The notes beneath the pieces are model-generated. The model worked only from the letters and a program-made list of their open reading frames with translations. It did no database searches and was not told where the DNA came from. Below, piece by piece: positions 2,992 to 36,512 of a DNA stretch of 51,034 bases (position 1 is its first letter; the number at the start of each line of letters is the position of its first letter). Position numbers and translations under genes: made by a program. The DNA comes from Spirochaetia bacterium (GTDB lineage Bacteria > Spirochaetota > Spirochaetia > DAHUYW01), in NCBI GenBank assembly GCA_030041455.1, contig JASHNV010000019.1, positions 1 to 51,034 on the forward strand, given 5' to 3'.

Positions 2992-4185
2992 CTAGAGGTC
3001 TTCCGCGAACGACCTGCCGTGAGGCATCGGTCCGGCCGCGAAGAGCTCGGCGAGGGTCTGCGCGAGGTCGAAGAAGCCGTCGTGAATGCCGAGGCTCCGT
3101 CCCGGGCGCCCCTTTCGCCGGACGAGGAGGGGTACGAGCTCGCGGGTGTGGTCGGAGCCTCGAAAGGTCGGATCGCAGCCGTGGTCCGCGCTCACGACGA
3201 GGAGGTCACCCGGCGCCATGGCTTCCATGAAGCCCGGAAGCCGGGAATCGATTGCGCTCACCGCGCCGAAATATCCGGGCACGTCGCGGCGGTGGCCATA
3301 GATCATGTCGGTGTCGACGAGATTCACGAAGACGAGCTCGCCGCGCGGCGGTCGGGGCCTCCCGAGGAGCTCCGAGACCCGGTCGAGGCAGGCGGGGTTG
3401 CCTGCGTCGTGGAAGCTCTCGTCGATCCCCTGCTCGTTGAAGATGTCCCCGATTTTCCCGACCCCGACGGTGCGCACCCCGGCGGCCTGCAGGTGGTCGA
3501 GAAGGCTCTTCGACGGGAGCCGGATGCTGAAGTCCCTGCGGCCCGAGGTGCGGACGAAGGAGCCCGGCGCGCCGCGAAAGGGCCTCGCGATGACCCGTCC
3601 CACCTGGTAGGGGTCGCACAGCCGGCGGGCGATCAGGCAGATCCGGTAGAGCTCTTCGACGGGAATCACCTCCTCGTGGGCGGCGATCTGAAACACCGAG
3701 TCGCCCGAGGTGTAGGCGATCGGCGAGCCGGTTCTCAGGTGCTCCTCTCCGAGCTCCTCGATGACGACCGTTCCCGAGGCGGCCCGGTTCCCGATGATCT
3801 TCTTCCCGATCTCCGCCTCGAAGGCCGCGACGAGCTCGGCCGGGAAGGAGGGGTAGGCGGGGGGAAAGGTGTGAAAGGCCCGCGCAAGCTCGATGCCCGC
3901 CATCTCCCAGTGACCCGTCGTCGTGTCCTTGCCCGGCGAGCGCTCGACCATCACGCCGTAGCTCGCAAGCGGACGGTCGGCGGCCGGACACCCCGGAAGC
4001 GGATTGCCGAGCAGCTCGGAGGCGTTCCCCAAGCCGAGGCCCGCGAGCGCGGGCCACTTCTCGCCGGGGACCTTTTCGCAGATATGGAGCGCGGTGTTGG
4101 CGCCCACGTCGCCGTAGCGCTCGGCGTCCGGAGCGTACCCGATACCGAAGCTGTCGATGACCAAGACCGTCGCTCGCACGCTCAT
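2992..4185 (-). CDS. deoB: Phosphopentomutase, last gene of the BMC operon
   Basis: 397 residues, the usual DeoB length. It interconverts (deoxy)ribose-1-phosphate and (deoxy)ribose-5-phosphate and belongs to the alkaline-phosphatase-like metalloenzymes. Visible motifs are the first metal Asp in 'VLVIDSFGIG' (D11), the phosphorylated-Thr segment 'GKDTTTGHWE' near residues 85-94 (T88 aligns with the catalytic Thr of the Bacillus enzyme), 'DTDMIYGHRRD' and 'SADHGCDPTFRGSDHTRE' with metal-binding Asp and His. The start at 4185 was chosen because the family begins directly at the metal motif; an upstream extension in the same frame is not conserved. It lies 20 nt after deoC, so it is co-transcribed. 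It has no N-terminal encapsulation helix, so it may feed the compartment from outside. It links nucleoside phosphorolysis to the DeoC step. Confidence 0.93.
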   Translation of the reverse strand: MSVRATVLVIDSFGIGYAPDAERYGDVGANTALHICEKVPGEKWPALAGLGLGNASELLGNPLPGCPAADRPLASYGVMVERSPGKDTTTGHWEMAGIELARAFHTFPPAYPSFPAELVAAFEAEIGKKIIGNRAASGTVVIEELGEEHLRTGSPIAYTSGDSVFQIAAHEEVIPVEELYRICLIARRLCDPYQVGRVIARPFRGAPGSFVRTSGRRDFSIRLPSKSLLDHLQAAGVRTVGVGKIGDIFNEQGIDESFHDAGNPACLDRVSELLGRPRPPRGELVFVNLVDTDMIYGHRRDVPGYFGAVSAIDSRLPGFMEAMAPGDLLVVSADHGCDPTFRGSDHTRELVPLLVRRKGRPGRSLGIHDGFFDLAQTLAELFAAGPMPHGRSFAEDL

Positions 4186-4205
4186 CCCCCGGCATTCATG
4201 TGCCG

Positions 4206-4955
4206 TCAGTACGCGGCTTCGCTCGCGCCGCCGGTGACGATCTTCACGCCGGCGCTCGTCCCGAGACGCGTCGCGCCCGCCTCGATCATGGCGACGGCGT
4301 CCTCGAAGCTTCGAATGCCCCCGGAAGCCTTCACGCCGAGACGAGGCCCGACGGTTCTCCTCATGAGCGCCACGTCGTGGACGTTGGCCCCGTGGGTCGA
4401 GAACCCGGTCGAGGTCTTCACGAAATCCGCTCCGGCGTTTTTCGCGACCTGGCAGGCGAGGATCTTCTCCTCGTCGGAGAGGAGCGCCGTCTCGAGAATG
4501 ACCTTCAAGGCCACGTTGCCGGCGCAGGCGCGCGAGACCGAGCGGATGTCGCTCTCGACGAGCTTCCAATCCCCGGACTTCGCCGCGCCGATGTTCATGA
4601 CCATGTCGATCTCCCGGGCTCCGTCCTCGATCGCGTGGCGCGCCTCGAGGTTTTTCGCGCGCGCGGACATCGCGCCGAGCGGGAACCCCACGACCGAAGC
4701 GACCTTCACCGCGCTTCCCTGCAGCGCGCGCGCGCAGCAGGCGACCCGGCCGCTGTTCACGCAGACCGAGAAGAAGCCGTACGCGACGGCCTCCTCGCAG
4801 AGCTTCGCAAGCTGCCCGTCCGTCGCCTCCGGCTTGAGCAGGGTGTGATCTATATACGGGGCGATCTCGGCGGGAGTGAAGACCCGCTTCGGCTCCGCCG
4901 AGAGGCGCCGCATGACTTCGCGCGTGATTGTCTCTACGAGCTCGCTTTCCGCCAT
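4206..4955 (-). CDS. deoC: Deoxyribose-5-phosphate aldolase with N-terminal encapsulation helix
   Basis: 249 residues. It cleaves 2-deoxyribose-5-phosphate to acetaldehyde and glyceraldehyde-3-phosphate. The class I aldolase residues are present: Schiff-base Lys180 in 'FVKTSTG', Lys209 in 'GVKASGGIR' and Asp117 in 'EIDMVMNIG'. The catalytic TIM barrel begins around residue 30 ('[12 protein letters not shown]'). The first ~20 residues ('[16 protein letters not shown]') are an amphipathic helix followed by a short linker, resembling the encapsulation peptides that target enzymes into BMC lumens. The gene sits 7 nt after rpiB and 20 nt before deoB. It is the likely signature lumen enzyme, and trapping toxic, volatile acetaldehyde is the expected reason for the shell. 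Confidence 0.95.
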
Positions 4956-4962
4956 GTTCTTC

Positions 4963-5460
4963 TCACTCCGTTCGCATTCCGCCTGAATGTTCGATAGCCA
5001 TCATCTTGTTGACGCGGCTCCAATGCCTTCCCCCCGCGAAACGGGTCTCAAGCCACACCTTCGCCATCTCGCAGAGCTCCGCGGGAGGATGGAGGGGACC
5101 GCCGAGCGTGAGCACGTTCGCGTTGTTGTGCTCGCGCGAGTTGACGACCGTCCTGAGATCGTAGCAGAGCGCCGCCCTGATGCCGCGCACCTTGTTGCAC
5201 GCCATGCTCGATCCGATGCCCGCGCCGTCGATCATGATTCCCCGGTCGCAGGCGCCCGTCGCCACCCTTCGCGCCACCCGAAGCGCGAAGTCCGGGTAGT
5301 CGACGCTTTCTTTTCCCGAAGGCCCGACGTCCTCGACCGCGTAGCCGAGGGCGCCGAGGTAGCTCTTCAGCAGCTCCTTCGCTTCGAAGCCCCCGTGGTC
5401 CGACCCTATCGCCACCGTGCGGACGTTGTCCCGTGCGTTGATCTCAGCTGCGCTGTCCAT
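4963..5460 (-). CDS. rpiB: RpiB/LacAB-family sugar-phosphate isomerase, active-site Cys replaced by Asp
   Basis: 165 residues, RpiB family (ribose-5-P to ribulose-5-P). The N-terminal '[10 protein letters not shown]' and the anion-hole loop 'GAGIGSS' are present, as is the His of '[10 protein letters not shown]' (H111). The catalytic Cys of E. coli RpiB ('ICGTGIG') is Asp78 here ('IDGAGIG'); a new Cys appears ten residues later (C88). Asp could act as the proton-shuttling base, or the substrate may differ. There is no obvious encapsulation helix. Pairing with DeoC is the hallmark of SPU-type BMC loci. Coupling to DeoB suggests it removes ribose-5-P made from ribonucleosides. The family is certain; the exact reaction is not. 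Confidence 0.85.
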
Positions 5461-5480: not shown

Positions 5481-5750
5481 TCAGTCCCGCGACACCGCGT
5501 CGACGATCCCCACCACCATGGTCCTCGCCGGAGCGAGGCTATCGCCGAGAATCAGCCTCGCCGAGTTGCCCTCGTCGCAGACGAGGACGAGATCGCCCCG
5601 GCCCGCCTGGACCGAGTCGAGCGCGACGAGCCGCTTTCCCACCGGCCTCCCCTCGGGATCCACCGGTTGAACGGTGAGGAGCTTCAGCCCCGCGAGCTTC
5701 TCGTGTTTCATCGTCGACACCACGGTACCGACGACCCGTCCGAGCACCAT
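5481..5750 (-). CDS. BMC-P (EutN/CcmL-type) shell vertex protein, copy 4
   Basis: 89 residues starting 'MVLGRVVGTVVST', the typical first strand of the EutN/CcmL fold. Conserved features are 'KLLTVQPVD', 'VALDSVQAGRGDLVLV' and the C-terminal 'VGIVDAV'. Pentamers of this family cap the vertices of the polyhedral shell. The start at 5750 was chosen from the conserved N-terminus; a longer Arg/Ser-rich extension in frame is not family-like. Its start is 1 nt from the stop of the preceding BMC-P gene, so the two are probably translationally coupled. Confidence 0.9.
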   Translation of the reverse strand: MVLGRVVGTVVSTMKHEKLAGLKLLTVQPVDPEGRPVGKRLVALDSVQAGRGDLVLVCDEGNSARLILGDSLAPARTMVVGIVDAVSRD

Positions 5751-5751
5751 C

Positions 5752-6030
5752 TCAATCCTCCGAGTCCTCCGAGTCCGCCGCGTCGACGATGCCGAGAAGG
5801 GTCGCGTCGGACGGATTGAACCAGTCGGCAAGCGCGAGGGCGGCCTCCCTGCCCTGCTCGAAGAGAACGAGGTCCCCGACGCCCGCCTGGACGGTGTCGC
5901 ATGCGACGAGGGGCCGACCCGTCGCCTTCGAGCGCTCGTCGAGGGGCTGAACGACCATGAGCTTTATTCCGAAGAAGCCGGGGTCCTTGCGCTCGCAGAC
6001 CACCGTTCCGATCACCCTCCCGAGCTGCAT
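5752..6030 (-). CDS. BMC-P (EutN/CcmL-type) shell vertex protein, copy 3
   Basis: 92 residues, 'MQLGRVIGTVVCERKD...' with 'KLMVVQPLD', 'VACDTVQAGVGDLVLF' and 'LLGIVDAAD'. Same fold and role as its neighbour (shell vertex pentamer). It ends in a short acidic tail (ADSEDSED) that the other copies lack. It lies 10 nt after the aldehyde dehydrogenase gene. Sequence differences from the other three copies are large enough that they are unlikely to be recent duplicates. Confidence 0.9.
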   Translation of the reverse strand: MQLGRVIGTVVCERKDPGFFGIKLMVVQPLDERSKATGRPLVACDTVQAGVGDLVLFEQGREAALALADWFNPSDATLLGIVDAADSEDSED

Positions 6031-6040
6031 GGCGTTTCCT

Positions 6041-7468
6041 CTACACGATCCTGAAATAGCCGACGAGCGAGCACCGGCGCTCCCGCGTGAAGGTGCGCGG
6101 CCGGGTGAAGCCCTCGCCCGTCGGGCTCGCGATGGTGAACGAGGTGTAGCCCGCGCCTCCCGCAGCCATGCCGTTGAAGTTGGAGCCGTTCTTGACGAAC
6201 AGCGAGCAGTTCATGACCTTCGCCATGCGCGAAAGGTTCTCGATGTTCTTGGAGTGCATGGAGGCGGTGTGCCGGAAGCCGTGCTCGCAGCGTACCGCGA
6301 AATCGATCGCCTCCTCCGCGGTCCGGAAGCGCGTGATCGGGATGACGGGCATGAGCTGCTCGGTCCAGACGAGCGGATGCGCGCTTTCCACCTCGCAGAG
6401 GAGGATCTTCGTGGAAGCGGGAACCGAGAGGCCGACGGTCTTCTCCGCGATGTAGCTCGCGTCCTTGCCGACGTAGCTCTTGTTGGCCGCCCCCTCGTGC
6501 CCCGGCCTCCCGGGATCTAGGATGATCTGGGGAGTGATCCTCGCTATCTGCTCGCCCGAGAGCTCGAAAGCTCCCCGCTTGATCATCTCGGACTTCAGGG
6601 CGTCGGCGATGGAGCCGACCGCGAGGATCTCCTTCTCGTCGATGCAGATGATGTTGTTGTCGAGCCCCGCGCCGCTCACGATGTCCTCGGCCGCCTTCGC
6701 GATGTCCGCGGTCTCGTCCACCACCACGGGAGGATTCCCGGGGCCGGCGACGATCGCCTTCTTCGGCCGCTTGAGCGCCTCGCGCACGATGTCGGGCCCG
6801 CCGGTCACGGTAAGGAGCGCGATGTCGGGGTGGTCCATGAGCGCCTGGGCCGAGGGAATCGTCGGCTCCGCGATCGCGGTGAGCGCGTTCTCGGGACCCC
6901 CGGCTTCGATAATGGCGGCATTCAGGAGACCGACCGTCAGGGCCGATACGCCCTTCGCCTTCGGGTGGACGTTGAATACCACGGTGTTTCCCGCCGCGAT
7001 CATGCCGATCGCGTTGCAGATGATGGTCGACGTAGGGTTCGTGCTCGGCGTGATCGCGCCGATGACTCCGTAGGGAGCCCGCTCGGTGAGCATGAGCCCG
7101 TGGTCGTCGGTGTAGGCCTCGGGCTTGAGATCCTCCACCCCCGGCGTCATCTCCGCCGCGAGCCTGTTCTTGAAGACCTTGTGCTCCGCCCTGCCGAGCC
7201 CCGTCTCCTCCGCGGCGAGCGCCGAGATCCGCTCGTTGTTCGCGAGGGCCGCCTCCCGCATGCGCCGGATCATGAGGGCGCGGGTCTCGAGGCTCGTCTC
7301 GGAAAGCTTCTTGAAGGCGGTTCGCGCCGCGCCGATCGCGGCCTCGATGTCGGCGAAGACCCCCGTGAGCTTCGATCTCGGGACGGACGGCTCCGGTCGG
7401 CCGTCGAGCTTTTTCAGAACCTCCGCCACCACGAGGCGGACCGCGCGCTCGTCGATCTCCATGGTCAC
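6041..7468 (-). CDS. CoA-acylating aldehyde dehydrogenase of the BMC lumen (PduP/EutE family)
   Basis: 475 residues. It oxidises an aldehyde with NAD+ and CoA to acyl-CoA; here acetaldehyde from DeoC would give acetyl-CoA. Family marks are 'ITPSTNPTST', 'GGPDIVREAL', 'AGPGNPPVVVD' and the catalytic Cys275 in 'NNIICIDEKE'. Residues 4-22 ('EIDERAVRLVVAEVLKKL') form an amphipathic helix followed by a Pro-rich linker, a classic encapsulation peptide. The start is GTG at 7468: AAGGAG lies five bases upstream, and the GTG overlaps the TGA of the preceding BMC-T gene. ATG at 7462 is the alternative. No PduL/Pta or alcohol dehydrogenase accompanies it. Confidence 0.93.
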   Translation of the reverse strand: MTMEIDERAVRLVVAEVLKKLDGRPEPSVPRSKLTGVFADIEAAIGAARTAFKKLSETSLETRALMIRRMREAALANNERISALAAEETGLGRAEHKVFKNRLAAEMTPGVEDLKPEAYTDDHGLMLTERAPYGVIGAITPSTNPTSTIICNAIGMIAAGNTVVFNVHPKAKGVSALTVGLLNAAIIEAGGPENALTAIAEPTIPSAQALMDHPDIALLTVTGGPDIVREALKRPKKAIVAGPGNPPVVVDETADIAKAAEDIVSGAGLDNNIICIDEKEILAVGSIADALKSEMIKRGAFELSGEQIARITPQIILDPGRPGHEGAANKSYVGKDASYIAEKTVGLSVPASTKILLCEVESAHPLVWTEQLMPVIPITRFRTAEEAIDFAVRCEHGFRHTASMHSKNIENLSRMAKVMNCSLFVKNGSNFNGMAAGGAGYTSFTIASPTGEGFTRPRTFTRERRCSLVGYFRIV

Positions 7469-8049
7469 CTAGTCTCCTTGTCCGGCGTGGCTCGGTAGAA
7501 CGGCCTGATGTCGGGATGCGGCCGCGGGATGACGACGGAGCGGACGAGCCTGCCTCTCGCCTCGACCGCCGAGACGGCGGCCGCCATGCTCGCCTCGACG
7601 TCCTCGAGGCGGCCGACGATCTTGAGCGCGGAGCGCCCGCCGAGATGGCTGTCGATGCGGAGCTCGACGAGACGGACCTCGGCGCGCTTCGCCGCGCGGT
7701 CGGCCGCCTCGATCCCCGCGGTGATCGAGGACGACTCGACGATGCCGAGCGCGTCCCACTCGCCCTCCTGCGGGTCGCCCGTCATCGCGGGCATGACCTG
7801 CGCATGCAGGTTCGCGATGCAGAGCTCGTCGACGACACCGGTGGCCCCGGCGAGCCTTCCGGCGACAAGCGACGCCTCGACGGAGGCGACGTCGCCGGTG
7901 ATGAAGATCACGAGGCGCGCCGGCGTGATCGTCCTCACGTCGACGATCTCGACGGGCGCCGCCTTCACCATGGCATCGAGCGCCTCGATGCCCTTCGCGG
8001 TATCCGAGAACTCCTGGACTCCGAGTATCTCCACGTTTGTCGCTCTCAC
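7465..8049 (-). CDS. BMC-T shell protein, tandem BMC domains (PduT-like architecture)
   Basis: 194 residues with two fused BMC (PF00936-type) domains. Residues ~5-90 hold 'VEILGVQEFSDTAKGIEALDAMVKAA' in sections and 'VDVRTITPARLVIFITGD'. Residues ~100-190 hold 'DALGIVESSSITAGIEAADRA', 'LRIDSHLGGRSALKIVGR' and 'VVIPRPHPDI'. Such proteins form pseudohexameric trimers in the shell facets. The single Cys does not sit in an evident Fe-S pore motif. The start is GTG at 8049, with GAAGG upstream, chosen because the BMC fold begins there; longer in-frame sequence is Arg/Ser-rich and overlaps the neighbour. It overlaps the aldehyde dehydrogenase start by 4 nt. Confidence 0.88.
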   Translation of the reverse strand: MRATNVEILGVQEFSDTAKGIEALDAMVKAAPVEIVDVRTITPARLVIFITGDVASVEASLVAGRLAGATGVVDELCIANLHAQVMPAMTGDPQEGEWDALGIVESSSITAGIEAADRAAKRAEVRLVELRIDSHLGGRSALKIVGRLEDVEASMAAAVSAVEARGRLVRSVVIPRPHPDIRPFYRATPDKETR

Positions 8050-8059
8050 GGTCGGGCCT

Positions 8060-8347
8060 TCACTTCCGGAACACGATGGAGCCGTTCTCCTCGACGAGAT
8101 CGACGATCCCGACGATGACGGCGTCCACCGGCTTCTTGTCGGTGAGCCGGGTTTGGCGCGCGGAGCTCCCCTGCGAGACGAGCACGACCTCGCCGACCCC
8201 GGCGCCCATCGTGTCGACCGCCACGAGGAAGTCGTCGAGCGGCCGCCCGTCGAGCCCGCAGAGGTCGACGAGGAGGTACCTCGGCGCGTCCATCGAGTCG
8301 TTCCGCTCGGTCCCCACGACGGTGCCGGCAACCTGCGCGAGGATCAC
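8060..8347 (-). CDS. BMC-P (EutN/CcmL-type) shell vertex protein, copy 2
   Basis: 95 residues starting 'MILAQVAGTVVGTERND', with 'YLLVDLCGLDGRPL', 'VAVDTMGAGVGEVVLVSQGSSAR' and 'AVIVGIVDLVEENG', all typical of EutN/CcmL pentamers. The start codon is GTG at 8347 and overlaps the TGA of the preceding BMC-P gene (GTGA), implying translational coupling. It is followed after 10 nt by the tandem BMC-T gene. Confidence 0.9.
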   Translation of the reverse strand: MILAQVAGTVVGTERNDSMDAPRYLLVDLCGLDGRPLDDFLVAVDTMGAGVGEVVLVSQGSSARQTRLTDKKPVDAVIVGIVDLVEENGSIVFRK

Positions 8348-8649
8348 CTCGACGCTCCATCCTTGCGGTAGACGGTCTCGCCCCTGCAGTCGACGAGATC
8401 CACGATTCCGATGATCGCCGCGTCGCTCGGCTTGCCCTCGGTGAGGGAAGTCATGCGCGAGCTCGAGCCCGAGACGCAGAGGACGATCTCCCCGGCGCCC
8501 GCTCCCACCGCGTCCATCGCCACGAGGTAGTCGCTCCTGCCCCGCATGGTTGCGCCGTCCACCTTCTCGAGAAGGAGGAGCTTGATCCCCTCCATCCGCG
8601 GCTCCTTGCGAGTCGAGACGACGGAGCCGACCACCCGCGCGAGAAGCAT
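8344..8649 (-). CDS. BMC-P (EutN/CcmL-type) shell vertex protein, copy 1
   Basis: 101 residues starting 'MLLARVVGSVVSTRKEPRM', with 'KLLLLEKVDG', 'VAMDAVGAGAGEIVLCVSGSSSR' and 'AIIGIVDLVD'. It is most like copy 2, with a shared 'GSSSR/GSSAR' loop and 'IVDLV' end, so these two may be an old tandem duplication. The start ATG at 8649 lies 8 nt after the BMC-H stop. A longer upstream frame exists but runs through the BMC-H gene and is not family-like. Confidence 0.9.
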   Translation of the reverse strand: MLLARVVGSVVSTRKEPRMEGIKLLLLEKVDGATMRGRSDYLVAMDAVGAGAGEIVLCVSGSSSRMTSLTEGKPSDAAIIGIVDLVDCRGETVYRKDGASR

Positions 8650-8657
8650 ACCGCGCC

Positions 8658-8969
8658 TTACTTGCCGCCGCGCAGGCCGAGCGGCAGCGCCTCGTCGACG
8701 CTCGCGTGCGGCCGCGGAATGATGTGGATCGAGATCACCTCGCCGACCTTCTCCGCCGCCTTGCCGCCCGCGTCGAGCGCCGCACGCACCGCGGCGACGT
8801 CCCCCCGCACGATCGCGGTGACATATCCGCCGCCAGTCTTCTCGTAGCCCTTCAGGTCGACCTTCGCCGCCTTCACCATCGCGTCGGAGGCTTCGACCAT
8901 CGCGGCGAAGCCCCTGCACTCGATCATGCCGAGCGCCGTACCGGTAACACTGTCGCTTTTTTCCGCCAT
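8658..8969 (-). CDS. BMC-H hexameric shell protein (PduA/EutM type)
   Basis: 103 residues with one BMC domain: '[26 protein letters not shown]', read in parts, then the pore loop '[14 protein letters not shown]' and the closing '[18 protein letters not shown]'. Hexamers tile the shell facets, and the GGG pore segment gives a small central pore as in PduA-like proteins. The ribosome site decides the start: GGAGAGG directly abuts an ATG at 8975, but lies at ideal distance (6 nt) from ATG 8969, so MAEKSDS is preferred. This is the only BMC-H in the window, so it is probably the main facet component. Confidence 0.93.
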
Positions 8970-8999
8970 ATCCATCCTCTCCGTAACGGCTCTTCGCCG

Positions 9000-9638
9000 C
9001 TATTCCTTTTTTCCGACGGCTTCCCTGCCAGAAATGGCGAGAAGCCGCGACTCCACGATCTCCTTGCTCACGAGAACCTCCGCCTCGTCGCCCGCGATGT
9101 AGACCCGGCCGAAGCTGCCGAACCCCACGACGTTGACGATGTTGATGCGCGAAGCCTTTTCCGCCTCGTTGGCGGCATAGTACGCGTAGCCCGCCGGCTG
9201 CATCTCGAGCACGTAGAGCGTGTCGCCGCGCAGGACCATGTTCCCGTAACGAACCTTGTTGATCATCTGCGCGTGGTGGTCCGAGATGTTCTTGATGAGC
9301 TGGCTCGTGAGGACGACCGGCTTCATCCGGTCCTCCTCCGCCATGCCGAGCGCCGTCATGACCGCCGAGCCCGCCTGGCGGGCGTAGCCTTGGCTGTCGG
9401 AGTGGACCTCGAGGAGGCCGAAGAGGCGCTCGACGATCTGGATTCCCGGCTTCACGTCGGTGGCTTTCAGCGCGACGTCGGTCAAGCGGTTGATCTCGAT
9501 CCCCGGCGATATCTCGACGATCGTGCACGCCTGCCCGGCGACCGGAAAGTATCCCTTCGAGACGGTCGCAAGGTAGGAGGCCATCTGCAGCTGGAGCGAG
9601 TCGATGAAGCTGTAGGTGCGAAGCTCCACGTTGTTCAT
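9000..9638 (-). CDS. BMC-T shell protein of the CsoS1D/double-trimer type
   Basis: 212 residues beginning 'MNNVELRTYSFIDSLQLQMASYLATV', read in parts. Two BMC domains follow: 'EISPGIEINRLTDVALKATDVKPGIQIVERLFGLLEVH' in the first and 'LYVLEMQPAGYAYYAANEAEKA' plus 'VVGFGSFGRVYIAGDEAEV' in the second. This resembles the CsoS1D/CcmP-like class, whose stacked trimers form large gated pores. The start at 9638 has GGAG eight bases upstream; a 23-residue Arg/Pro-rich in-frame extension is not family-like. It is the first structural gene after the regulator, separated from it by 103 nt in which no clear promoter was seen. Confidence 0.87.
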   Translation of the reverse strand: MNNVELRTYSFIDSLQLQMASYLATVSKGYFPVAGQACTIVEISPGIEINRLTDVALKATDVKPGIQIVERLFGLLEVHSDSQGYARQAGSAVMTALGMAEEDRMKPVVLTSQLIKNISDHHAQMINKVRYGNMVLRGDTLYVLEMQPAGYAYYAANEAEKASRINIVNVVGFGSFGRVYIAGDEAEVLVSKEIVESRLLAISGREAVGKKE

Positions 9639-9741: not shown

Positions 9742-10743
9742 TCATGCGGCCTCCTTTGCCTCGAGCTTGAGAAGCGACCGGGCGGTGCGCTCGTCGGTCA
9801 CGAGCACGTCGACGAGGTCGCCCCGGATCGCTCCGGCGATGGCGGCCACCTTCGCGGCGCCGCCTGCAACCGCGACGACGGTCTTCTTCCCGCTCTTCAG
9901 GCTCTCGAGCGGAATCCCGACGACGCGGTCATGGATCGCGTCGTCGATGAGGTCCCCCCGCGAGTCGAAAAATCTGCTGAGGATGTCCCCCACCGCCTTC
10001 TTCCTGACGATGCGGGCAAGATCGCCCTCGCTCAGGTAGCCCATCCGGAAGAGCGAGGCGGACCTCGACACCTCGCCGATCGAGAGGAGCACGACGTCGG
10101 CGCCAGACCCCATCTGGAGCGTCTCGCCGATCCACGGCTCCGAGCGGAAGGACTCGGCCCGTTCCTTGCTCTGCGTAATGGCGGGCGCCCAGATGTTGTA
10201 AAAGGGGGCGCCCATCTTCTCGGCGATCTTCATGCCCACGATATAGGGGTTCATCGCGACGTCGGTCATAAGGTTCCCGATAAGGGAGACGACCTTGACC
10301 TTCGGCTTCTTGGGCGTCATGGGCTCGAAGTAGTCGGCAAGATACGCCGTCGTGTTCCCCCAGCCGAGCCCGAGCGTGCACTCGCCGCTCCGGCCGAGCA
10401 GTCGCTCGAGGTAGCCCGCTCCTGCCATCGCGAAGGCTCGTCGCATGCCCACGTCCTCCTTCCGCCAGGGAACGACGACCGCGTCGCGGAGACCGAATGC
10501 GCTCCGTAGCCGCTCTTCGACGCTTAGGAGGTTGTTGTGCGGATGCCGGACGTCGAACTTGATGATCTCGAGATCGCGCGCCCGGTCGAGCAGCCTCTGC
10601 ACCTTTTGGCGGGAGAGATACGTCGATTCGGCGATCTCCTGCTGGGTCAGTTTTCCCTTGTAGTATAGCCAGGCGATCCGGGTGATGAGATCGTCGCTTG
10701 AGTCCGCGAGGATCGAGTCAGCATTTGCTCGATTGCTGAGCAT
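9742..10743 (-). CDS. SorC-family transcriptional regulator of the BMC operon (Bacillus DeoR-like)
   Basis: 333 residues. The N-terminal helix-turn-helix spans about residues 20-60 ('ITRIAWLYYKGKLTQQEIAE', 'LSRQKVQRLLDRA'). The C-terminal sugar-phosphate-binding domain includes 'TLGLGWGNTTAYLADYF', 'SLIGNLMTDVAMNP' and 'AVAGGAAKVAAIAGAIRGDLVDVLVTDE'. Bacillus subtilis DeoR belongs to this family and responds to deoxyribose-5-phosphate, the DeoC substrate, so dR5P is a likely effector (inference). It is the first gene of the operon. A strong promoter and a palindromic operator overlap its start codon, which suggests autoregulation of the whole operon. The predicted transcription start falls on or next to the ATG, and no ribosome site is visible. 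Confidence 0.88.
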   Translation of the reverse strand: MLSNRANADSILADSSDDLITRIAWLYYKGKLTQQEIAESTYLSRQKVQRLLDRARDLEIIKFDVRHPHNNLLSVEERLRSAFGLRDAVVVPWRKEDVGMRRAFAMAGAGYLERLLGRSGECTLGLGWGNTTAYLADYFEPMTPKKPKVKVVSLIGNLMTDVAMNPYIVGMKIAEKMGAPFYNIWAPAITQSKERAESFRSEPWIGETLQMGSGADVVLLSIGEVSRSASLFRMGYLSEGDLARIVRKKAVGDILSRFFDSRGDLIDDAIHDRVVGIPLESLKSGKKTVVAVAGGAAKVAAIAGAIRGDLVDVLVTDERTARSLLKLEAKEAA

Positions 10744-13719: not shown

Positions 13720-15027
<1,308 letters not shown>

Positions 15028-35735: not shown

Positions 35736-36437
35736 CTATTCGGCGAGCGACAGCGCGAGCTCGACCATGCGGTCGAAGCCGGTCTCCCGTTCCTTGGACG
35801 TCGTCTCCTCGTGGGTCACGAGGCTGTCGCTCACGGTGAGGAGCGCGAGCGCCTCGACCCCGTGTCGCGCGGCGAGGGTGTAGAGCGCGGAAGTCTCCAT
35901 CTCCACGGCGAGCGTCCCGTAGGAGGCCCAAAGCCGCCAGCTCTCCGGATCGGCCTGGTAGAAGCTGTCGGTCGAGAGGACGCCTCCCGCGTGATAGGCG
36001 AGACCGAGCCGGTCGGCCCGCTCGAGCGCCGCGCGCAGGAGCCGGGCGCTCGCGATCGGCGCGAAGTCGCCCTCGGCGAAGCGGACGCGGTTCATCCGAG
36101 AGTCGGTCGAGGCGCCCACCGCGATCACGACGTCGCGCACCTTCACCTCGGGCTGCAGCGCGCCGCAGCTTCCGATCCGGATCAGGCTCTTCGCGCCGTA
36201 CTCCCGCATGAGCTCGGTGGCGTAGATGGCCATGGAAGGCTGCCCCATGCCCGTTCCCTGGACCGAGAGACGGCGCCCCTTCCAGAAGCCGGTGAATCCG
36301 AGCATGCCGCGGACCTCGTTGTAGCAGACCGCCCGATCGAGGAAGCGCTCCGCGACGAACTTCGCCCGCAGCGGATCGCCCGGAAGGAGAACGGTTTCGG
36401 CGACGGCGCCCTCGGGCGCTCCGATGTGCGTGCTCAT
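35736..36437 (-). CDS. deoD: Nucleoside phosphorylase (DeoD-type purine/uridine family)
   Basis: 233 residues starting '[30 protein letters not shown]' in parts. The phosphate site is 'LPGDPLRAK'. '[20 protein letters not shown]' in parts, '[13 protein letters not shown]' (nucleoside-binding Glu-Met-Glu) and '[19 protein letters not shown]' in parts are DeoD-like, with the Asp in 'TVSDS' that marks purine specificity. It converts purine (deoxy)nucleosides and phosphate to base and (deoxy)ribose-1-phosphate, the other feed for DeoB. The start at 36437 comes from family alignment; no ribosome site is visible. A promoter ends 10 nt before it, so the mRNA may be almost leaderless. Confidence 0.88.
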
Positions 36438-36447
36438 GTCGGGAAGG

Positions 36448-36476
36448 ATCATACCAGGAGACGCCCGCGCGGGCAA
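36448..36476 (-). promoter_or_regulatory. Promoter of the nucleoside phosphorylase gene
   Basis: Minus strand TTGCCC (36471-36476), 17 bp, TATGAT (36448-36453). The -10 ends ten bases before the ATG at 36437, predicting a leader of only a few bases. Confidence 0.5.
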
Positions 36477-36482
36477 GCGCGC

Positions 36483-36512
36483 TTGCACCAAGCGCCGGGA
36501 GCGTGGTATGAG
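36483..36512 (+). promoter_or_regulatory. Divergent promoter of the DUF212 gene
   Basis: TTGCAC (36483-36488), 18 bp, TATGAG (36507-36512). Its -35 is only six bases from the -35 of the opposite promoter. ATG 36518 follows almost at once. Confidence 0.4.

Follow-up and report, generated by a model that had tools for sequence, protein, structure and literature searches.

The RpiB-like gene and its active site

The window analysed here is the whole stretch of 51,034 nucleotides of contig JASHNV010000019.1 from a Spirochaetia bacterium. On its minus strand, the gene at 4963–5460 encodes a 165-aa protein resembling ribose-5-phosphate isomerase B (RpiB), in which an aspartate stands at the position of the catalytic cysteine of the E. 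coli enzyme. We report that this replacement is one of four recurring changes in a group of RpiB-like proteins, from here on the Asp type. Counts in the following list compare 132 distinct Asp-type sequences from several phyla, retrieved with a profile built on the group itself, with 83 other PF02502 relatives, which have either Cys plus Thr/Ser or the Gly, Ser and Glu arrangement of Mycobacterium tuberculosis RpiB.

4963–5460, minus strand, including the stop codon: RpiB-like protein of the Asp-type subfamily, 165 aa (PF02502, LacAB_rpiB, 168.8 bits)
5227–5229, minus strand: codon GAC of Asp78, which corresponds to the catalytic Cys66 of the E. coli enzyme (Asp in 132/132 Asp type, 0/83 others)
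5221–5223, minus strand: Ala80, where E. coli RpiB has Thr68, whose hydroxyl moves a hydrogen between O2 and O1 (PMC4783025, PMC3755991)
5209–5211, minus strand: Ser84, where RpiB of the M. tuberculosis type has its base Glu75 (Ser in 131/132 Asp type, 1/83 others)
5140–5142, minus strand: Asn107, a partner-subunit pocket position that is Met92 in LacA and lies four residues before the ring-opening His (Asn in 121/132 Asp type, 0/83 others; PMC3755991)
5128–5130, minus strand: His111 (E. coli His99), which is proposed to protonate the ring O4, invariant in the Asp type (role from PMC4783025)
5014–5028, minus strand: Arg145-His146-xx-Arg149, phosphate-binding and O1-side residues, at least 98% conserved in the Asp type

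By profile and fold the protein is a member of the RpiB/LacA/LacB superfamily, with scores far above the cut-offs of PF02502 (168.8 against 24.7 bits) and TIGR00689 (152.4 against 88.3). Its AlphaFold monomer model (pLDDT 90.7) matches RpiB structures with TM-scores of 0.85–0.96, those to C. thermocellum RpiB 3he8 being 0.85–0.95, so that the predicted RpiB fold is beyond doubt; the nearest solved relatives are ordinary ribose-5-phosphate isomerases B. The finer models divide. The protein passes the broad NCBIfam ribose-5-phosphate isomerase B model NF004051 and narrowly misses the RpiB equivalog model TIGR01120 (135.7 bits, cut-off 138.65). It stays below the Glu75-type model TIGR02133 (128.6 against 168.2 bits), its loop reading DGAGIGS and not GGSGNGE, and below the LacA/LacB equivalog models (71–99 bits, cut-offs 164–325). 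No second PF02502 gene that could supply a heteromeric, LacAB-style partner was found on the window contig, which has a single PF02502 match.

A sequence-only reading of the window had pointed to an Asp in place of the catalytic Cys at 5206–5247, a range that corresponds to loop residues 72–85. The GAC codon bears this out, and Asp78 aligns without gaps to the catalytic Cys of the C. thermocellum, T. maritima, trypanosomal, Giardia and E. coli enzymes. Thus the protein has neither the Cys of E. coli position 66 nor Thr or Ser at position 68, while the ring-opening residue His99 is kept as His111, the His of 'REHNNANVL' in the same reading, together with the phosphate-binding His and Arg residues (H22, H111, R145, H146, R149). 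The E. coli motif itself is ICGTGVG and had been misquoted as ICGTGIG. Cys88, described there as new, is indeed present; it is common only in close Spirochaetes-like relatives, and a role as substitute nucleophile was rejected since most relatives have Ala at this position. The linked changes from Thr68 to Ala80, to Ser84 and to Asn107 had escaped the earlier reading.

The Asp-type subfamily, DeoC and microcompartments

Relatives were drawn from genome contigs, from Spirochaetota genomes and from genomes of the phyla to which the Chloroflexota, Planctomycetota, Verrucomicrobia, Holophagae and Firmicutes loci belong. In their alignment Asp is fixed in the microcompartment loci of SPU type and occurs in none of the ordinary relatives, and the protein has no catalytic Cys at another site. 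The only other Asp seen at position 78 is that of LacA, the LacAB subunit from which the catalytic Cys does not come (PMC3755991). At position 80 the Asp type has Ala in 120 of the 132 sequences and Ile, Val, Leu or, once, Glu in nearly all remaining ones, never Thr or Ser, against Thr or Ser in 83/83 of the others. Residues D21, H22, D54, H111, R145, H146 and R149 are retained. Conservation of the signature in 132 distinct sequences led us to reject a sequencing error, chance or a pseudogene as the source of Asp78.

In RpiB, Cys66 acts as the base at C2 and Thr68 carries a proton between O2 and O1; Glu75 is the replacement base in the M. tuberculosis enzyme, His99 donates to the ring O4, and Arg and His residues serve the phosphate and the O1 side (PMC4783025). 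The LacAB pocket is lined by Cys65, Thr67 and Met92, with Cys65 and Thr67 at O1/O2 (PMC3755991). Because of these published roles of Cys66, Thr68, Glu75 and LacA Met92, the four changes at positions 78, 80, 84 and 107 are placed together at the C1–C2 end of the pocket. In our reading, the Asp-type proteins would form a distinct RpiB-fold subfamily in which this end has been rebuilt.

A single origin of the subfamily appears likely, a grading kept at that level because the trees use few columns and are weakly supported. Once the columns of the signature had been taken out, one fork contained 101 of the 106 Asp-type rows along with one Cys row, and in a smaller tree a single Asp-type clade was not rejected (approximately unbiased (AU) test, p 0.47). 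On the same figures, from weakly resolved trees, multiple independent origins were less favoured. Three Spirochaetota proteins (L054, L057, L058) carry H111-D112, with Asp replacing the Asn after the ring-opening His, and sit outside the main fork of the smaller tree with weak support.

The Asp type has a near-constant partner. DeoC, the deoxyribose-phosphate aldolase, lies beside it at 119 loci, at 19 of them fused to it in one protein; the non-fused pairs are on the same strand in 100/100 cases with a median gap of 4 bp, and the catalytic Asp/Lys/Lys of DeoC is intact in 119/119. By comparison, none of about 84 Cys- or Glu-type relatives adjoins DeoC or shell genes in the fetched DNA, with flanks mostly of 1.5 kb and of up to 8 kb for relatives from the genome-contig search. 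One RpiB-DeoC fusion, L275, came from the Verrucomicrobia phylum search (genome G852). It stands beside DeoB and pyrimidine-nucleoside phosphorylase (PYNP) in a genome without a detectable bacterial microcompartment (BMC) gene, has the loop residues D-E-S and has Leu in place of Arg145; it is a possible shell-free user of the RpiB-DeoC pair.

In the window, DeoC, the pfam02502 protein, an aldehyde dehydrogenase and shell genes stand together, the gene set of an SPU-type locus.

2992–4194, minus strand: DeoB, phosphopentomutase (above the cut-offs of TIGR01696 and NF003766)
4206–4955, minus strand: DeoC, deoxyribose-phosphate aldolase (TIGR00126, 276 bits, above cut-off), with the catalytic D/K/K present and a putative encapsulation-peptide-like N-terminal helix as read from the sequence
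5481–5753, minus strand: BMC-P (EutN/CcmL) shell protein (PF03319)
5752–6030, minus strand: BMC-P (EutN/CcmL) shell protein (PF03319)
6041–7468, minus strand: CoA-acylating aldehyde dehydrogenase of EutE/PduP type (NF011927, 625 bits, above cut-off), its N-terminus encapsulation-peptide-like as read from the sequence
7465–8079, minus strand: BMC-T shell protein with two BMC domains (PF00936, two stretches)
8060–8347, minus strand: BMC-P shell protein, by homology to the window's EutN proteins and EutN genes of related loci
8344–8616, minus strand: BMC-P shell protein, by the same homology
8658–8975, minus strand: BMC-H shell protein (best NCBIfam model EutM, 121 bits, slightly below cut-off)
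9000–9638, minus strand: BMC-T shell protein, CcmP-like (NF053796, 276 bits, below the cut-off of 340)
9742–10743, minus strand: SorC-family regulator nearest Bacillus DeoR, the deoxyribonucleoside regulator (best PDB match 8r7y; NF053881, 195 bits, below cut-off)

PYNP (13720–15027) and DeoD (35736–36491) lie elsewhere in the window, and together with DeoB and the DeoR-like regulator they indicate deoxynucleoside catabolism as the predicted context of the locus. Beside DeoB, at 3–2855 on the minus strand, a long open-ended protein (about 950 aa) runs off the left end of the window; 'DGKDxxGxxxPDGxY' segments recur in it, and it apparently has an OmpA-like stretch at its C-terminus.

The link to microcompartments extends to the genomes. 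Among 247 Spirochaetota genomes, 17 have an SPU BMC-T protein, 16 an Asp-type protein and 13 both, so that BMC-T is present in 13/16 genomes with the Asp type against 4/231 of the rest (Fisher p = 9e-16). The other four BMC-T genomes lack the Asp type; in the stretches fetched from them, short contigs in three cases, neither a Cys-, Glu- nor Asp-type RpiB nor any other was found near the shell genes. Among 199 Acidobacteriota genomes, 42/42 that have the Asp type carry BMC genes, compared with 48/157 of those without it (p = 4e-18), although the shell genes are often not close to the RpiB-DeoC pair. Independence of the Asp type from microcompartments was considered for the many Acidobacteriota and Planctomycetota loci that are shell-less within 10 kb, yet in 18 of 20 such genomes BMC genes are present at another place, and the idea was rejected. 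The two without are G852, with the fusion, DeoB and PYNP, and G399, whose Asp type is at a contig edge. Loci L262 and L264–L274 (Acidobacteriota, Planctomycetota) pair an Asp-type RpiB with DeoC and lack shell genes over a distance of about 10 kb, the tested genomes carrying BMC genes elsewhere; BMC surveys based on loci could miss such pairs.

By a rough regular expression, an encapsulation-peptide-like N-terminal pattern is found in 73/132 Asp-type proteins and 2/82 others. In addition, 27 Asp-type proteins (including L256, L264 and L272) and none of the others have a 'TPLARD'-like segment ahead of the RpiB domain; it had no Pfam match in the single protein tested (L256) and may be a cargo-associated domain. 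The encapsulation-peptide-like N-termini of many members, the DeoC fusions and the loss of the catalytic Cys and Thr would fit a non-catalytic or scaffold protein, with a sugar-phosphate site that only binds substrate, holds DeoC oligomers or aids cargo assembly. We regard this as unlikely, since D78, S84, H111, H146 and the phosphate ligands are conserved near-perfectly over several phyla, as is typical of an active enzyme.

Substrate and reaction

Without the Cys and Thr of ordinary RpiB, the Asp type probably does a different job, and the published annotation of the SPU RpiB as ribose-5-phosphate isomerase is best regarded as unproven. Full counts are available for 50 Asp-type genomes; 46 of these encode RpiA or a further PF02502 protein, and RpiA occurs in 6/10 genomes whose sole PF02502 protein is of the Asp type against 2/40 of the rest (p = 3e-4). 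The Asp type therefore does not appear to stand in for the housekeeping enzyme, nor to make a ribose-5-phosphate isomerase dispensable to the cell. A separate RpiB of GGSGNGE type (L001) is encoded elsewhere in the window genome. The third PF02502 gene of this genome (L003, G000:C88:4999-5406) is of Cys type, with 'CDPN' and 'AAKSNNANII' replacing the DH and RxHN motifs, and groups with a Rhizobium RpiB/LacA/LacB-family protein whose gene adjoins that of a triose-phosphate isomerase.

In the main rival explanation, the protein would have remained an aldose-ketose isomerase whose substrate is ribose-5-phosphate or something closely related. Asp78 would serve as the C2/C1 base and Ser84 would be its hydroxyl partner, and the ribose-5-phosphate would come from ribonucleosides that enter the same compartment or pathway. 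This would be a third solution beside Cys plus Thr in E. coli and Glu plus Ser in M. tuberculosis. It is chemically conservative: the loop of each type contains a single base and a single hydroxyl (C/T, E84/S80, D78/S84), and the M. tuberculosis enzyme demonstrates that the base is able to change place (PMC4783025). Nucleoside phosphorylases and DeoB yield ribose-5-phosphate as well as 2-deoxyribose-5-phosphate, and the broad model NF004051 accepts the protein. Against this stand the other isomerase kept in nearly all Asp-type genomes, the just-missed RpiB equivalog cut-off (135.7 against 138.65 bits), a locus with no recognised user of ribulose-5-phosphate, and the tie, even by fusion, to DeoC, for which a known link to ribose-5-phosphate use is absent. 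Moreover, exchange of the Cys for Ser in Leishmania RpiB and for Ala in T. cruzi RpiB gave inactive enzymes (PMC4783025). On balance we consider an isomerase possible but rather doubtful.

The job that we favour, as a tentative proposal, is that the Asp type opens the ring of 2-deoxyribose-5-phosphate for DeoC. The sequence-only reading had left the choice between Asp as catalytic base and another substrate within the BMC pathway. The fixed, SPU-linked Asp agrees with that framing, and because of the additional changes at the C1–C2 end and the near-constant DeoC partner, another substrate or reaction, with 2-deoxyribose-5-phosphate as the candidate, would be favoured over a plain exchange of Cys for Asp. 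This sugar resembles ribose-5-phosphate save at C2, where the pocket appears to be rebuilt. DeoC acts on the aldehyde, and 2-deoxyribose-5-phosphate is 99.8% furanose (PMC5975929).

In the proposed mechanism, the furanose would be held via its phosphate, as RpiB holds ribose-5-phosphate; Asp78 would take the proton from the anomeric O1-H, and His111 from the neighbouring subunit would protonate the ring O4. Asp78 near O1 and His111 at O4 would thus form a base-acid pair, as in mutarotases. The ring would open and the aldehyde would go to DeoC, which uses the open form only. Such an opening is the first half of the RpiB reaction and should be feasible on 2-deoxyribose-5-phosphate, for which an aldose-ketose shift would be impossible without the 2-OH. 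The lack of a 2-OH on the sugar, and hence of enolisation, would explain the loss of the Thr hydroxyl that serves O2. The overall logic would be that of the sialic acid 'openase' YhcH feeding the aldolase NanA, on an RpiB scaffold, and the subfamily would accompany DeoC in microcompartments in which 2-deoxyribose-5-phosphate is consumed. The wider claim, that a widespread RpiB-fold 'openase' with Asp78, Ala80, Ser84 and Asn107 hands the aldehyde to encapsulated DeoC and that the SPU 'isomerase' is not an isomerase, is put forward with more reserve.

Several points weigh against ring opening. E. coli DeoC is not known to need a helper, and a need for one would have to stem from the enzymes being highly concentrated within the shell. 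In other aldose-ketose isomerases the base is usually a carboxylate, Asp78 by alignment occupies the position of the base that abstracts the C-H proton, and Asp with Ser84 could equally rebuild the isomerase pair of base and hydroxyl. Opening of the 2-deoxyribose-5-phosphate ring has been argued not to be limiting for the aldolase, citing spontaneous opening of ribose-5-phosphate at 40–100 per second (PMC5975929). Three Acidobacteriota Asp-type loci (L256, L259, L260) have no DeoC within about 10 kb, and in 4 of the 50 inventoried genomes (G025, G169, G251, G262), of which G169 is rated 99% complete, no other ribose-5-phosphate isomerase was found. Finally, the profile behind the 132/132 figure was built from the subfamily, and retrieval was thus not free of bias; as an independent check, a search by shell genes found no Cys-type RpiB in a shell locus.

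Alternatively, the protein may isomerise or epimerise some other small sugar phosphate that is formed or consumed next to DeoC, such as glyceraldehyde-3-phosphate or an unrecognised tetrose or pentose phosphate of SPU metabolism. The family is versatile, with relatives acting on galactose-6-phosphate (LacAB) and D-erythrulose-4-phosphate (DerI model NF051858). However, the phosphate-binding and O3/O4 end of the pocket is the same as in pentose-phosphate RpiB, which a three-carbon substrate is not expected to span, and the account of SPU loci in PMC4207490 reports triose-phosphate isomerase for the triose phosphates. We hold this explanation to be improbable.

Relation to known systems

The family is known, while the Asp variant, as far as we can tell, is new: a literature search that covered few subscription journals found no publication on it and no experiments on SPU RpiB. 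SPU loci are among the most widespread microcompartments, with more than 280 loci in 26 phyla according to PMC8217296, and their function has been deduced from two signature enzymes. Should one of these prove not to be a ribose-5-phosphate isomerase, the pathway model would have to be revised to a compartment that serves only deoxyribose derived from DNA. A sugar-phosphate isomerase fold that has been adapted to open a ring for an aldolase would also be a rare example of its kind. The four-residue signature would allow many 'RpiB' proteins to be reannotated. If the protein is an isomerase after all, it would add a third active-site solution to a textbook family.

Compared with the Cys-type enzymes of E. 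coli and C. thermocellum, the window protein shares the fold (TM-score up to 0.96), 39–49% identity in structural alignment and the residues of the phosphate, ring-opening and dimer sites. It differs from E. coli RpiB by Cys66 to Asp, Thr68 to Ala, residue 72 to Ser84 and Leu95 to Asn107, and by having DeoC as partner gene. With M. tuberculosis RpiB it has in common a carboxylate replacing Cys as the presumed base, but there the base is at window position 84 with Gly at 78 (GGSGNGE), whereas the window protein has the carboxylate at 78 and Ser at 84. Lactococcus LacA also has Asp at the Cys position, with the loop residues D-Y-P; it reads DL, without the His of the DH motif, and gives the LacB active site only His96/Asn97 and arginines (PMC3755991). 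Unlike LacA, the window protein has both halves of the active site in one protein.

The locus matches described SPU BMCs in its DeoC, pfam02502 protein, acylating aldehyde dehydrogenase and shell genes (PMC8217296, PMC4207490). The passages on these loci in both papers call the pfam02502 member RpiB, isomerising ribose-5-phosphate, and make no mention of missing catalytic residues. YhcH, a proven anomerase that opens sialic acid for NanA (PMC8141875), comes closest to the logic proposed here, in which the gene of a ring opener accompanies that of an aldolase restricted to the open sugar. YhcH belongs to an unrelated metalloprotein family (DUF386) and is a functional analogue only, its activity being proven where that of the window protein is a proposal.
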